Assembly (NCBI RefSeq): GCF_019923725.1
Contig: NZ_JAHXRI010000010.1
Coordinates: forward strand, 644,636-708,635
From: Zwartia hollandica
GTDB taxonomy: Bacteria > Pseudomonadota > Gammaproteobacteria > Burkholderiales > Burkholderiaceae_B
DNA: 64,000 nucleotides
Direction: 5' to 3'
Shown: positions 3,484 to 39,375 of the stretch, piece after piece
Layout: each line of letters begins with the position of its first letter
Position numbering within the stretch: position 1 is the stretch's first letter
Notes under the pieces: model-generated
The model's input: only the letters and a program-made list of their open reading frames with translations
Databases searched by the model: none
What the model was told of the DNA's origin: nothing
Program-made: the position numbers and the translations under genes

Positions 3484-5031
3484 TTGAAATACAAAGATCT
3501 TAGAGACTTCATTTCGCAACTCGAGCGCAATCATGACCTCAAGCGCATTCAGGTACCTGTTTCGTCCTCATTAGAAATGACTGAAATATCGGACCGTGTA
3601 CTCAAAGCGCAAGGGCCAGCGCTAATTTTCGAGCAGCCAATGCATAACGGCACTCGAGCAAGCATGCCAGTCCTGACAAATTTATTTGGGACTCCCACCC
3701 GTGTCGCGCAAGGGATGGGTGCCGAGAACACCGCTGCATTGCGAGAGATCGGGGAGTTACTGGCGAGCCTGCGAGAGCCTGAGGCCCCCAAGGGACTTAA
3801 AGACGCAATAGCGAAAGTCTCCATGCTCAAAGCGGCCCTCTGGGACATGAGCCCAAAAAATGTACGCGGCGCACCTTGTCAGGAAATCGTATGGGAAGGC
3901 AATGATGTTGATCTTGCCAAACTGCCGATTCAAACCTGCTGGCCCGGAGATGTTGCACCCTTACTGACCTGGGGTCTAGTCATCACGCGCGGGCCTAATG
4001 CAAAACGCCAGAATCTCGGGATCTATCGACAACAGGTGATCGGCCGCAACAAACTCATCATGCGCTGGCTATCGCACCGAGGTGGTGCGTTGGATTTCAG
4101 GGATCACGCGCTTGCCAATCCCGGTAAACCGTTTCCCATTGCCGTCGCGCTTGGTGCGGACCCTGCAACAACACTTGGCGCGGTTACTCCCGTGCCCGAC
4201 TCACTTTCGGAATATCAGTTTGCGGGGCTTCTGCGTGGCGGTCGCACCGAGGTCACGCAGGCGCTCGGTAGCAACCTCTCCGTTCCGGCGACCGCAGAAA
4301 TTGTCCTTGAGGGCCACTTGCTGCCAAGTACCGACCCACGCGCCATCACCCCAAACGTACCACCTGGGGTAAATCCGCCGCCCGCTTCGGATTACGAACT
4401 TGCGCTCGAAGGACCTTTTGGTGATCACACCGGCTACTACAACGAACAAGATTGGTTTCCGGTATTCACGGTAGACCGCATCACCATGCGTCGCAATCCC
4501 ATTTATCATTCCACCTACACCGGCAAGCCACCAGATGAGCCTGCAGTGCTGGGCGTTGCACTCAACGAAGTGTTTGTGCCACTACTACGCCGACAAATTC
4601 CGGAAATCGTAGACTTCTATCTGCCCCCAGAGGGATGCAGCTATCGCCTTGCTGTCGTTTCAATTCGTAAGCAATACCCCGGTCACGCGAAGCGGGTGAT
4701 GTTTGGTCTCTGGAGCATTCTGCGTCAGTTTATGTACACAAAATTTATCGTTGTGGTTGACGCAGACATTAACCCACGCGACTGGAAGGAAGTGGTGTGG
4801 GCGATGACCACGCGCATGGATCCGGTACGGGATACGCTGCTTGTAGAGAACACGCCAATTGACTACCTTGATTTTGCCTCGCCCGTCTCCGGACTAGGCG
4901 GAAAAATGGGGATGGATGCGACCAATAAATGGCCGGGAGAAACACAACGAGAATGGGGCACACCTATTCAGATGGATGCCGCAACCAAGTTGCGTGTAGA
5001 CGCGATTTGGAACGAGCTCGGACTATCTTAA
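3484..5031 (+). CDS. ubiD: UbiD-family decarboxylase (4-hydroxy-3-polyprenylbenzoate decarboxylase)
   Basis: A 515-residue UbiD-family protein, slightly longer than the roughly 490-500 residues usual for ubiquinone-pathway UbiD. It starts at a TTG, supported by an upstream AAGGGCAGG and by the family N-terminus (KYKDLRDFI). Conserved family segments include [13 protein letters not shown] and the C-terminal [15 protein letters not shown]. UbiD enzymes use prenylated FMN made by UbiX to decarboxylate aromatic or unsaturated acids; in ubiquinone synthesis the substrate is 4-hydroxy-3-polyprenylbenzoate. No ubiX is in the window, so a different aromatic substrate is possible. The stop overlaps by 4 bp the end of the convergent permease gene. 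Confidence 0.88.
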
Positions 5032-6041
5032 GCAGAGCGCTTTGCGTGACGCAATAGCAGGGCAATAAAGAAAGGTCCGCCCACCAAGCTGGTGATGACA
5101 CCAACCGGTATCTCTGCGGGCATCACCGCGACGCGTGCGAGCCAGTCTGCCAGCACGAGAGCGATCGCGCCCGCAACCCAAGAAAGTGGTAATAGCACCC
5201 GATGGCCTGCGCCAACCCAGCCTCTCAGAATATGTGGAATGACCAGTCCGATAAAAGCAATGCCCCCTGTCGCAGCAACGAGCGGGCCCACAAGTAGCGC
5301 GATCAAAAGAATCAACGTACGACGCACTTTTGCTATATCAAAACCAAGGTGATGTGCTTCACGCTCACCTAGCAGTAACGCATTTAGAACACGCCACTGA
5401 CGGAGCAATAAGGTCGAGCAAATAAGCGTCCATGGCAGCAACCAGCCCACCTGATCCCAAGAAGCACGGGTCAAACTGCCAAGCGACCAAAAACCAAAGC
5501 TACGGAACTGAGACTCAGAAATGAAGGTGGTCACTAAACTCACCACGCTCATCATGGTGGCGTTGATCGCAATACCTGCCAACAATAAACCAGCGACTCC
5601 CGGGTAGCGTCGCCCCAAAAAATAAGCCGACAGGGTGGCGAGCATGGCGCCAATAAAACCTGCAGCGCTGGTAAACCAGTGGCTATTGAACCCAAGCAGC
5701 AGTGTTAGGACGACCCCGAGCGACGCACCGGCCGATATTCCCACAAGACCGGGCTCCGCCAAGGGATTGCGAAACAACGCTTGCATCACCGCACCGCTCA
5801 GCGCAAGCGCCCCGCCCGCCACAGCCGCGAACAAAACGCGTGGCAACCTTAGCTCTAAAAGTACGGAACGCTTTAAGGGATCAACATCCGCGCCAACGCC
5901 AACGATCGCAAATACTTCGGACCACTGTATCGGCACTGCGCCGGACTTAAGCGCCAGGATCACCGTCATCAACAACGCAAACACCGCAACCATCCACAGA
6001 AGGAACGGCCGAGTAGGAGGTGATGAAGTGATCTGCATCAA
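5028..6041 (-). CDS. FecCD-family ABC transporter permease (iron/haem/cobalamin type)
   Basis: This 337-residue, very hydrophobic protein has the hallmarks of the FecCD/BtuC family: an N-terminal membrane segment, [36 protein letters not shown], and the C-terminal [16 protein letters not shown] and [18 protein letters not shown] motifs. About 9-10 membrane helices are expected. Such permeases work as dimers with a BtuD-type ATPase and a periplasmic binding protein to import siderophores, haem or B12. Neither partner is encoded nearby. Instead the gene overlaps by 4 bp (ATGA) an unknown secreted protein, downstream of dacB. The substrate cannot be assigned. Confidence 0.9.
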
Positions 6042-6751
6042 CGAACCGTCTTGACCTCAATCACTGCGCGCTGACCAGCTTGTTCAATTTCCTGTTTCAT
6101 CACAAGACTCACCGCAGGGCAGTACCAGTCCGTGACATAAGACTGCACCGCTGGAATGGCGATGACCACACCACGTATGTTCGCCATCGTTTGCTCGGTG
6201 CCTCGCGGATATCTAACCGGCCAACATAATTGCGGCCCTAACGCGGTATCGATCGACTGACGGGTACCCACAATTTTCTCGCCAACGCGAACCGTTAGCG
6301 CAGTGGTGGGTCCCTTGCGAGGATCCCCAATCGCAAGCCGAAAATTTTGTGGCGCCAACCGTTGTCCTGGTGCTTTGATCACAGTTCCATAACCAAAAAT
6401 ACTGACCATCTGCATATCAAACGCTTCTGCCTCAGCCGTCTGACCAGGACCGCTTTTAATCAGCTTCGCCTGCAAGTCGTTGGCCGTCAGGACATGATCG
6501 AGCTCCGCAGCACCTGTTAACAAACCAAACAAGGCGTAACTCGCATTACCTTTGACTTGTGCCTGACAGCTTTGTTTACCGGTTTTCTTAACATGACTAA
6601 AAGTCATGCGTGCGTTGACTTGAACGATGCCCTTACCCGTGATTTCTATCAGTCCACCATTATGAAAAAACTTGGCATCACAAATACCGGCGTGCGCTGA
6701 TACGCCAGACAGTAGGACCACTACACCCAAGAGGGCATGACGAACATTCAT
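6038..6751 (-). CDS. Secreted protein of unknown function, coupled to the FecCD permease
   Basis: I do not recognise this 237-residue protein. It begins with a clear signal peptide (hydrophobic residues 4-20, likely cleavage after SAHA). The mature part has four cysteines: AGICDA, KQSCQA, PQLCWP and WYCPAV. The rest mixes short hydrophobic and charged stretches without an obvious repeat or membrane segment. It sits between dacB and a FecCD-type permease, and its stop overlaps the permease start by 4 bp, which suggests translational coupling. A periplasmic accessory or ligand-capturing role for that permease is a guess from position only; it does not look like a standard periplasmic binding protein. 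Confidence 0.7.
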   Translation of the reverse strand: MNVRHALLGVVVLLSGVSAHAGICDAKFFHNGGLIEITGKGIVQVNARMTFSHVKKTGKQSCQAQVKGNASYALFGLLTGAAELDHVLTANDLQAKLIKSGPGQTAEAEAFDMQMVSIFGYGTVIKAPGQRLAPQNFRLAIGDPRKGPTTALTVRVGEKIVGTRQSIDTALGPQLCWPVRYPRGTEQTMANIRGVVIAIPAVQSYVTDWYCPAVSLVMKQEIEQAGQRAVIEVKTVR

Positions 6752-6780
6752 GGGTGCTTACCAGGTTGCATCGGTTAAAT

Positions 6781-8235
6781 TTATTTCGCGGTAAGCCAAG
6801 CGATTAACGCATTTTCAAAAGACCGCGCATCATGCGCACGATCATGATTGACCATACTGACAACTATATAGCGTTTGCCGCTGCTCGACCAGACATAGCC
6901 TGCAACGGAACGCACGTCGCGCAACGCACCCGTTTTAAGATGCGCCATAGACTTAGTAGCGGGATCGCGTAACCGGTTACGGGTCGTCCCATCAGTACCA
7001 AGAATTGCCAGCGAAGATACGTATTCAGGCATCACAGGAGACATCCACGCTTTTTGCAGCATTTGCGCCAGACTATCCGCCGATACCACCCCATTTCGAG
7101 ATAAGCCGGAACCGTTATCCAATACCAGCCCCTTCATCGGCAGGCCTTGCCTTGCCAAGACGTCTTGCGCGATCTGCACACTACCTGAAACATTCGCAGG
7201 ACGTCTGCCTGCCTCAGCGCCAAGCGTCAACAACAGCACACGCGTCATCACGTTATTGCTACGTTTATTAATCAAGCGAATCACCTCAGACAAAGGCGGC
7301 GACTGATGCGACGCAATGGCGGTGGCATTCGATGGAATGGAACCCGTTCGGACCTGACCGGTCATCGTGCCGCCAAGCTCTTTCCATAATGTTTGTAATA
7401 CTTTTGCACCAAACTCTTGCTGGGAGAAGGCCAAACGAAACACATCAAACTCGCCACAGGACCCAGCGCCTCTGCCACTCACGCGTATCCGAACCGTCGA
7501 CCCATCTGACGTGGTGTCTGTAGTCACGGCAGGTGACCCCGGACATTGTCCGTCGGCCCATTGCACGTTGCCCTCAACGACAACACCAGGGATTGGAGGG
7601 TCGATGAACGACTTCCAGGTTCGACTCGCCGGATCGGGGGAGAAAACAAGCCGAACGGCCCCAAAGCCCACCATGAAGGCATCCGGGCTAGCGTTATAAG
7701 GACGATCTGCGGCGCCGTCGAATGCACCAGGGTCTATCGTGACTTCACCAAAAACCGATCGATCCACAACGATATCGGAAATCTCTCGGATGCCCCGCAA
7801 ACGCAAGTCTCGCAAGAGGCGCCACACATCTTGCAACATCAAAACAGGATCACCGCCGGCGCGAAGATACAAAGGTCCTTTCAGTACACCCTGGTCACTA
7901 ACCTGAGAGTCTGGACTTAATAGGAAACTCGTATTCCACACATAATTCGGACCCAAGCGCGAGATTGCAGCGTAGGTGGTCACTAGCTTCATCACGGAGG
8001 CGGGGTTACGTGGGGTCTCGGGGGAGATTGCGAACAGTCTGGGCCCACCAATTTCCTGCACCAAGACAGACAAAGAAGACTCTGGTAGCTTGGTCTTGGC
8101 CCAGGCTTGTGCTAACTCGGGGGGCAACCCGCTCTGGGCTTGAACTTGCCATGCCGCCCCCGCACCGCCCAACAGCGTCGCCAACACCGCACACCTGCCC
8201 AGCCACATGCTGACCTTCGCTTTGCCTACGATCAT
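6781..8235 (-). CDS. dacB: D-alanyl-D-alanine carboxypeptidase/endopeptidase (PBP4, DacB)
   Basis: A 484-residue class C penicillin-binding protein (peptidase family S13) that trims and opens peptide cross-links of periplasmic peptidoglycan. All three active-site motifs are visible: S-V-M-K at residues 80-83 (nucleophile S80), S-N-N starting at residue 325, and K-T-G at 434-436. A signal peptide covers about residues 10-34 ([17 protein letters not shown], cleavage near VQAQ). The large gap between the first two motifs matches the inserted domains typical of PBP4. The start at 8235 has GGTGA upstream; an internal ATG at residue 10 is an alternative. It is the first gene of a minus-strand set with the unknown secreted protein and the permease. 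Confidence 0.94.
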
Positions 8236-39162: not shown

Positions 39163-39172
39163 TTGTATCGTT

Positions 39173-39375
39173 AGTAGCGGGAGAGCACACAGGCCTCATG
39201 AGCACTGCTGTCGCCGAAGGAGCAACCGCCCCGGAAACTCTCAGGCACAAGGAACCGCTACTTCTTTGACACTCTGAAGAGTTGCCCAGCCGCACAGCCC
39301 GGCACACCGAAGGAGCAAGCGTTAATCGAGGCTTAGCTTCCGAGACGCGAATCTCTCAGGTCCTGCACAGAGGGG
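39173..39375 (+). promoter_or_regulatory. Tandem glycine riboswitch
   Basis: Two glycine aptamers lie in a row. Aptamer 1 (39173-39262) is closed by an 8-bp P1 stem (AGTAGCGG/CCGCTACT) and contains GGGAGAG, GCCGAAGGAGCAA and ACTCTCAGGCA. Aptamer 2 (39272-39372) is closed by CTCTG/CAGAG and contains CACACCGAAGGAGCAAG and TCTCTCAGGTC. These are the conserved cores of the glycine riboswitch family, which binds glycine cooperatively. It leads into the flavoenzyme gene at 39432, which it most likely switches on when glycine is abundant. Confidence 0.95.

Follow-up and report, generated by a model that had tools for sequence, protein, structure and literature searches.

The window analysed here is a 64-kb stretch of the Zwartia hollandica genome (positions 644,636 to 708,635 of contig C2, in a 3.22-Mb genome that is 99.7% complete), and the subject of this report is a gene within it for a FecCD-family permease of the HmuU type, named PERM (5028-6041, minus strand; PF01032), together with the proteins that may complete its transporter. 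PERM follows two genes on the same strand: dacB (6781-8235), encoding the D-Ala-D-Ala carboxypeptidase/endopeptidase penicillin-binding protein 4 (PF02113, 4e-78; 185.1 bits against the equivalog cut-off of 107.8 for TIGR00666) and often found upstream of the next gene, and UNK (6038-6751), encoding an exported, beta-rich, DUF3108-like protein of 237 residues with four conserved cysteines. The other flank is formed by a convergent ubiD-family decarboxylase gene (3484-5031, plus strand; NF008175, 818.5 against a cut-off of 788), with which PERM overlaps by four bases. The gene order, the exported 237-residue UNK with its four cysteines and the lack of an ATPase or binding-protein gene near PERM had all been noted in the original prediction and are confirmed. 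None of the 81 ABC_tran matches and neither of the two Peripla_BP_2 proteins of the genome lies within the window, hence PERM stands alone. The predicted ATGA overlap of UNK and PERM needs correction: the junction reads TTGATG, in which the TGA stop of UNK and an ATG start of PERM at 6038 have one base in common, and if the TTG at 6041 is the start, the overlap is four bases (TTGA).

PERM is a full-length FecCD permease of the type II ATP-binding cassette (ABC) importers (PF01032, 1.1e-85; 287.9 bits against a cut-off of 26.5; profile positions 2-311 of 311). Its nearest solved structures are the haem permeases HmuU (4g1u, 1.3e-62) and 5b57 (6e-60), followed by the vitamin B12 permease BtuC (1l7v, 8.5e-48). 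In a 39-row permease tree, all 15 PERM rows fall into a single clade (99/98*), which is joined with the HmuU-A proteins of hemS-hmuT-U-V operons (99/99*); the classical BtuC of the genus lies across the root, at a length of 2.1 on each side, where the program flags long branches, and the tree was rerun with two added rows and with BtuC left out. BtuC is the top NCBIfam model for PERM, though at 249.8, under the equivalog cut-off of 334, and PERM falls outside the BtuC clade; its assignment as a BtuC orthologue was ruled out by the tree. By its sequence, PERM is of haem-permease ancestry.

Residues of functional interest were placed by alignment with BhuU, for which the part of the structural report consulted (PMC5136619) names R84 as the docking residue, equivalent to the Arg of an RLPR stretch, and D200, L203 and R204 as residues of the gating helix. 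The RLPR stretch with its docking Arg is kept in all 14 PERM rows that reach it, and the D/E..R pair of the haem-type gate is kept in 15 of 15. The L203 position is occupied by Phe in 11 of the 15 rows, and two residues past R204 every PERM has Phe or Tyr, where all 20 haem permeases compared have Leu. This change in the gating helix would be compatible with an altered partner or an altered substrate, without naming which. The presumed position of BhuU D112, also placed by alignment, was useless as a discriminator (Glu in 15/15 PERM and 19/20 haem rows).

The genome has two genes each for FecCD permeases and Peripla_BP_2 proteins. A complete haem locus, hemS-hmuT-hmuU-hmuV-tonB (C18:181-184 kb), accounts for one permease and one binding protein, and its HmuT is closest to the haem-binding BhuT (9.6e-53). 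A complete second transporter holding the partners of PERM was what the original prediction had set against its own proposal; a complete hmuTUV does exist at this locus, but it has its own permease and ATPase. The genome-wide search for the missing parts, which had been proposed as a check, yielded an unlinked ATPase and a binding protein on contig C22. The ATPase gene (C22:98,944-99,738; HmuV/BtuD-type) is flanked by a 3-hydroxyacyl-CoA dehydrogenase gene and by open reading frames (ORFs) that are neither FecCD nor Peripla_BP_2, both FecCD genes being distant. The Walker A, signature and Walker B motifs of this orphan ATPase are intact; it scores above the curated haem-ATPase cut-off of NCBI (280.8 against 261) and has the HmuUV/BhuUV importers (4g1u, 5b57) as its nearest solved relatives, as does PERM. 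A gene of 198-199 residues near it was considered as a BtuR adenosyltransferase; this was ruled out, since it matches glutathione S-transferase (GST).

The second Peripla_BP_2 protein is a BtuF (C22:129,459-130,328), its gene following btuB; the closest PDB entry is the B12-binding BtuF 5ysc (3.9e-37), with the top haem binder at 4.3e-15. The btuB-btuF pair (C22:127-130 kb) lies behind a cobalamin riboswitch (39.5 bits against 31.5), divergent from metH (2064.6 against a cut-off of 1497), and the same type of riboswitch precedes btuB-btuF in seven of seven further PERM genomes tested. The surroundings of btuB-btuF hold no FecCD permease and no nearby ABC_tran match, the nearest being at C22:108 and 152 kb. 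Because the other FecCD/Peripla_BP_2 pair occupies the haem locus on C18, PERM, the orphan ATPase and BtuF are left together by elimination.

The distribution of these genes was followed in 32 genomes of the Zwartia/Sheuella group of Alcaligenaceae (hereafter the genus), which include Zwartia panacis (G021), Z. vadi (G011) and Sheuella amnicola (G023); PERM is present in 15 of them, at the dacB-UNK-ubiD slot. An ATPase was counted as orphan-type when it was HmuV-type, at least 43% identical to that of Z. hollandica and encoded away from FecCD genes, with up to 42 candidates per genome scored at E<=1e-25. Twelve of the 15 PERM genomes yielded such an ATPase and the 17 others yielded none; in the latter, similar ATPases occur only as HmuV beside HmuU in hmu operons (G003, G007, G028). 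This pattern supports the suggestion that PERM makes use of an ATPase encoded elsewhere. The three PERM genomes without it are 65%, 86% and 79% complete (G020, G022 and G025, respectively), and the contig of G022 stops within the GST gene, next to which its relatives encode the ATPase. All 17 genomes without PERM have the classical set of btuF, btuC and btuD (split over two contigs in G003 and G008; verified in six loci plus eleven further genomes), and none of the 15 PERM genomes does. A cobalamin riboswitch was found in four of six classical loci examined, and neighbouring genes for BtuR, CobQ/CobB-like and CobT-like proteins were confirmed on examples. A GST gene and a 382-residue gene found near the orphan ATPase in the DNA of Z. 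hollandica and Z. vadi also lie near the classical operon in G005 and G024, a common neighbourhood that is suggestive only.

Twelve of the 15 PERM genomes have one other FecCD permease, always in an hmu locus, and three (G010, G023, G026) have none over the cut-off. In G023 and G026 the single Peripla_BP_2 protein is the BtuF of the btuB locus; Sheuella amnicola (98% complete) has PERM as its sole FecCD permease over the cut-off and BtuF as its sole Peripla_BP_2 protein. In G013, btuF is missing from the common btuB locus, and the btuB-btuF-btuC-btuD genes lie near metH instead. Four metagenome assemblies labelled 'Bordetella parapertussis' (loci L229, L230, L248 and L255 of G031, G020, G027 and G030) have the synteny of this freshwater Zwartia/Sheuella-like genus, and their species labels look wrong.

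PERM and the orphan ATPase are both under purifying selection. The ratio of non-synonymous to synonymous substitution rates (dN/dS) for PERM was 0.115-0.122 in three pairs with dS <1 and 0.054-0.066 in pairs with saturated dS, one of seven pairs being beyond measure; that for the ATPase was 0.124 and 0.158 in two pairs with dS <1 and 0.087-0.158 in saturated pairs, again with one pair beyond measure. No internal stop was found in PERM in any of the 15 genomes (the G026 copy is cut by a contig end). Control values in saturated pairs were 0.028-0.036 for UNK and 0.019 for UbiD, and since its dN/dS is above both, PERM is faster-evolving than its neighbours.

With its genes dispersed, its permease and ATPase co-occurring and the classical btuF-btuC-btuD set absent from the same genomes, PERM, the orphan ATPase and BtuF probably constitute a B12 importer with scattered genes, BtuCD having been replaced by a haem-derived pair. 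The dispersal and the haem ancestry are demonstrated; the three-protein assembly and, by elimination, the B12 (corrinoid) substrate are our inference. The three subunits would come from three loci, i.e. the dacB-UNK-ubiD slot for PERM and two sites on C22 for the ATPase and BtuF. BtuB would take B12 through the outer membrane, BtuF would capture it and dock onto a dimer of PERM, a pair of orphan ATPase subunits would power translocation, and MetH would consume the cofactor. PERM and its ATPase derive from hmuU and hmuV of haem uptake and would have taken over from the classical BtuCD, which this genome lacks. The wider proposal, that a haem permease-ATPase pair displaced BtuCD in part of Zwartia/Sheuella and became an unlinked, BtuF-driven importer whose changed gating helix marks a switch of substrate or partner, seems to us about evenly balanced between true and false.

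Several observations weigh against the proposed B12 importer. By phylogeny, PERM belongs with the haem permeases, and it retains the haem-type D/E..R gate in 15 of 15 rows. For BtuF and BtuB the top NCBIfam models are BtuF and TonB-B12, respectively, yet both matches are below the cut-offs (133.6 against 234, and 369.4 against 599.7). No cobalamin riboswitch at gathering score was predicted in the window, in the Z. hollandica ATPase locus (L127) or in nine ATPase loci of relatives, a set from which the loci L186 and L187 were left out. The btuB-locus BtuF occurs in 14 of 15 PERM genomes (undetected in G010, partial in G025) and is not PERM-specific, because it also occurs in 15 of the 17 genomes with the classical set; in G010, a draft of 540 contigs with PERM and the ATPase, no Peripla_BP_2 protein was detected. 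PERM is also less constrained than UNK and UbiD, at 0.05-0.07 in comparable saturated pairs.

The phylogenetic basis of the pattern is a further weakness. On a SecD tree of 30 genus genomes (all but G012 and G026) with two outgroup rows, as few as two changes explain the exclusion between PERM and the classical btu set, the backbone of this tree being without resolution; there is one independent pair on starred branches (p = 1), and there are two on all branches. Mutual exclusion was dropped as a statistical argument, the independent switches being too few. The exclusion pattern is exact but phylogenetically thin, and the weight is carried by the inventory of each genome. The 12 orphan ATPases lack clade support, that of G026 grouping with HmuV-A rows; a single clade is not rejected (p-AU 0.483). 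In favour of the proposal, the PERM and ATPase trees agree to a large extent in their subclades, with G000/G010/G015/G031, G011/G014/G021/G029 and G002/G016/G023 in common.

PERM and the orphan ATPase might still be a haem importer, a second HmuUV fed by HmuT from C18 or another binding protein, with BtuF using a different permease; we regard this as possible though rather unlikely. The clustering of PERM with HmuU and of the ATPase with HmuV is as expected under this explanation, as is the retained haem-type gate, and the same dacB-UNK slot holds a full haem cassette in two relatives: in Schauerella fraxinea (L257:7010-10705) and Achromobacter aestuarii (L258:7011-10705), genes for HemS-HmuT-HmuU-HmuV directly follow three small yqjDEK-like genes. 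The cassette permease is 57-58% identical to PERM and the cassette ATPase, whose reading frame reaches the end of the DNA retrieved, 48-49% to the orphan ATPase. A complete hmuS-T-U-V set at the slot was found only in these two of 80 named loci. The tree does not resolve the cassette hmuU as sister of PERM, so what PERM and the cassette have in common is the slot, and common descent of the insertion does not follow. A second HmuUV is harder to reconcile with Sheuella amnicola (98% complete) and G026 (94%), where PERM and the ATPase are kept without a detected HmuT or second permease; it also leaves BtuF without a FecCD permease in these genomes, and does not account for the gating-helix change at a position where all 20 haem permeases have Leu. 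Alternatively, PERM could be a functionless, decaying remnant of a haem cassette, given that hmuS, hmuT and hmuV of the relatives' cassette are absent from its slot in Z. hollandica and that its constraint is below that of UNK and UbiD. The uninterrupted frames in 15 genomes, the dN/dS values in the three unsaturated pairs and the retention of the ATPase alongside make this a very improbable account.

Two further explanations concern the partners of PERM. It may borrow the HmuV of the C18 locus, or draw on several ATPases in common, with the orphan ATPase on C22 serving another system: type II ATPases are alike, and the haem-ATPase model is the top NCBIfam match for both proteins. Sheuella amnicola, with PERM and an orphan-type ATPase and no HmuTUV locus detected, speaks against such borrowing, as does the way in which the orphan ATPase tracks PERM in 12 of 15 genomes, the miss in G022 lying at a contig end, and we consider it quite improbable. 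The other explanation is that of the original prediction, in which UNK would serve PERM as a novel substrate-binding or accessory protein. The overlapping reading frames and the export of UNK are in its favour, as is a sub-threshold match to SBP_bac_11 (E 0.032; 14.4 against 25), seen in 4 of 31 UNK members at E<=0.1. Half of the UNK-bearing genus genomes (15 of 30) have UNK without PERM, as do four other family genomes at the slot; a PERM homologue lies close to UNK in just 15 of the 80 named loci kept, 13 of them in the genus (96 were found in the scan of named genomes for UNK relatives, and some loci end at contig ends; in L240, from G026, PERM sits on a different contig from UNK); and in G002, G016 and G023 the three yqjDEK-like genes lie between UNK and PERM. 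The distribution largely refutes a partnership of UNK and PERM, the DUF3108-like model agrees, and a standard, otherwise unpartnered BtuF-type binding protein exists in the genome; we give this explanation the least credence, and UNK is probably not part of the transporter.

UNK has an N-terminal signal-like segment (judged by eye) and exactly four cysteines (positions 24, 62, 176 and 211), which are invariant across 31 aligned rows. A search of 61 genomes detected it in 34, i.e. in 30 of 32 in the genus (no homologue was detected in G012 and G013), in four of five in the rest of the family and in 0 of 24 in the rest of the order. The neighbour analysis that had been suggested for UNK shows it in the company of dacB and ubiD, not of PERM: UNK adjoins dacB in the genus loci examined, and in many relatives it is followed by the three yqjDEK-like genes and then ubiD. 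Its AlphaFold model (pLDDT 76.8) matches 4fvs (1.3e-7) and 3fzx (3.1e-7) in Foldseek at TM-scores of just 0.43-0.55, and structure comparison gave Z 11.7 for 3fzx (175 aligned, rmsd 3.9) and Z 11.4 for 4fvs (177 aligned, rmsd 3.8), with the next at Z 7.6 (Z scores, VIA). Both are entries that we take to be DUF3108 proteins. PF21347 (DUF3108_like) is matched by 9 of 31 UNK members at E<=0.1 (best, 5.3e-4); UNK thus resembles the exported DUF3108/YmcC-like proteins (4fvs, 3fzx, 2in5) in the fold of its model and in these family matches, and differs from them in its four conserved cysteines and in that the UNK of the window has no PF21347 match at E<=1. It has no match above cut-off to Peripla_BP_2 or to any other substrate-binding family of Pfam, and a genome search with PF01497 gave matches only at C18 and C22, none of which is UNK. 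UNK as a substrate-binding protein was rejected on grounds of distribution and fold. Given its distribution, synteny and model, UNK appears to be an exported beta-rich protein tied to dacB and ubiD rather than to the permease, and our guess is a role in the cell envelope together with DacB.

The yqjDEK-like trio, seen between UNK and ubiD at L042:10353-11445, encodes a DUF883 protein, a Phage_holin_3_6-family protein and a small protein without a Pfam match; the window does not have it, nor do many of the genus loci examined. Elsewhere in the window, a glycine riboswitch aptamer was predicted at 39168-39267 on the plus strand (57.6 bits against a gathering score of 32). On C22 of the same genome, a sub-gathering element resembling a thiamine pyrophosphate riboswitch (43.1 against 54.3) lies at about 120.2 kb (L035:2226-2322), just upstream of an ORF of 637 residues.

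B12 importers and haem or iron importers of this family are described as hard to distinguish by sequence in the part of PMC2667541 consulted, and cobalamin auxotrophy as the commonest auxotrophy in a collection of freshwater cultures, Zwartia among them, in that of PMC12381374. In the titles and abstracts that the literature searches returned, and in parts of these two papers and of PMC10535154 and PMC5136619, no haem-type pair with a BtuF and no mention of this locus was found. If a haem-type pair does carry B12 with BtuF, specificity would reside largely in the binding protein, and further B12 importers may hide among 'orphan' haem or iron permeases. Cultured strains exist (Zwartia panacis, Z. 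vadi and Sheuella amnicola), which makes the idea directly testable.

Compared with the known systems, the proposed importer shares with BhuUV and HmuUV (4g1u, 5b57), its nearest solved relatives, the RLPR stretch with its Arg and the D/E..R gate. Unlike these, PERM has no adjacent gene for HmuT, HemS or a receptor, its ATPase is unlinked, and one of its gating-helix positions is aromatic where the 20 haem permeases compared have Leu. With BtuCD-F of E. coli it has in common the type II importer architecture, a BtuF-type binding protein, a context of btuB and riboswitch, and unlinked genes, as btuB, btuF and btuCED of E. coli are mutually unlinked. Dispersed B12 genes as such are therefore already known; unlike in E. 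coli, the permease and ATPase are here also separated from each other, and both are haem-type (HmuU, HmuV) by tree, so that what would be new is a haem-type, mutually unlinked pair in the role of BtuCD.

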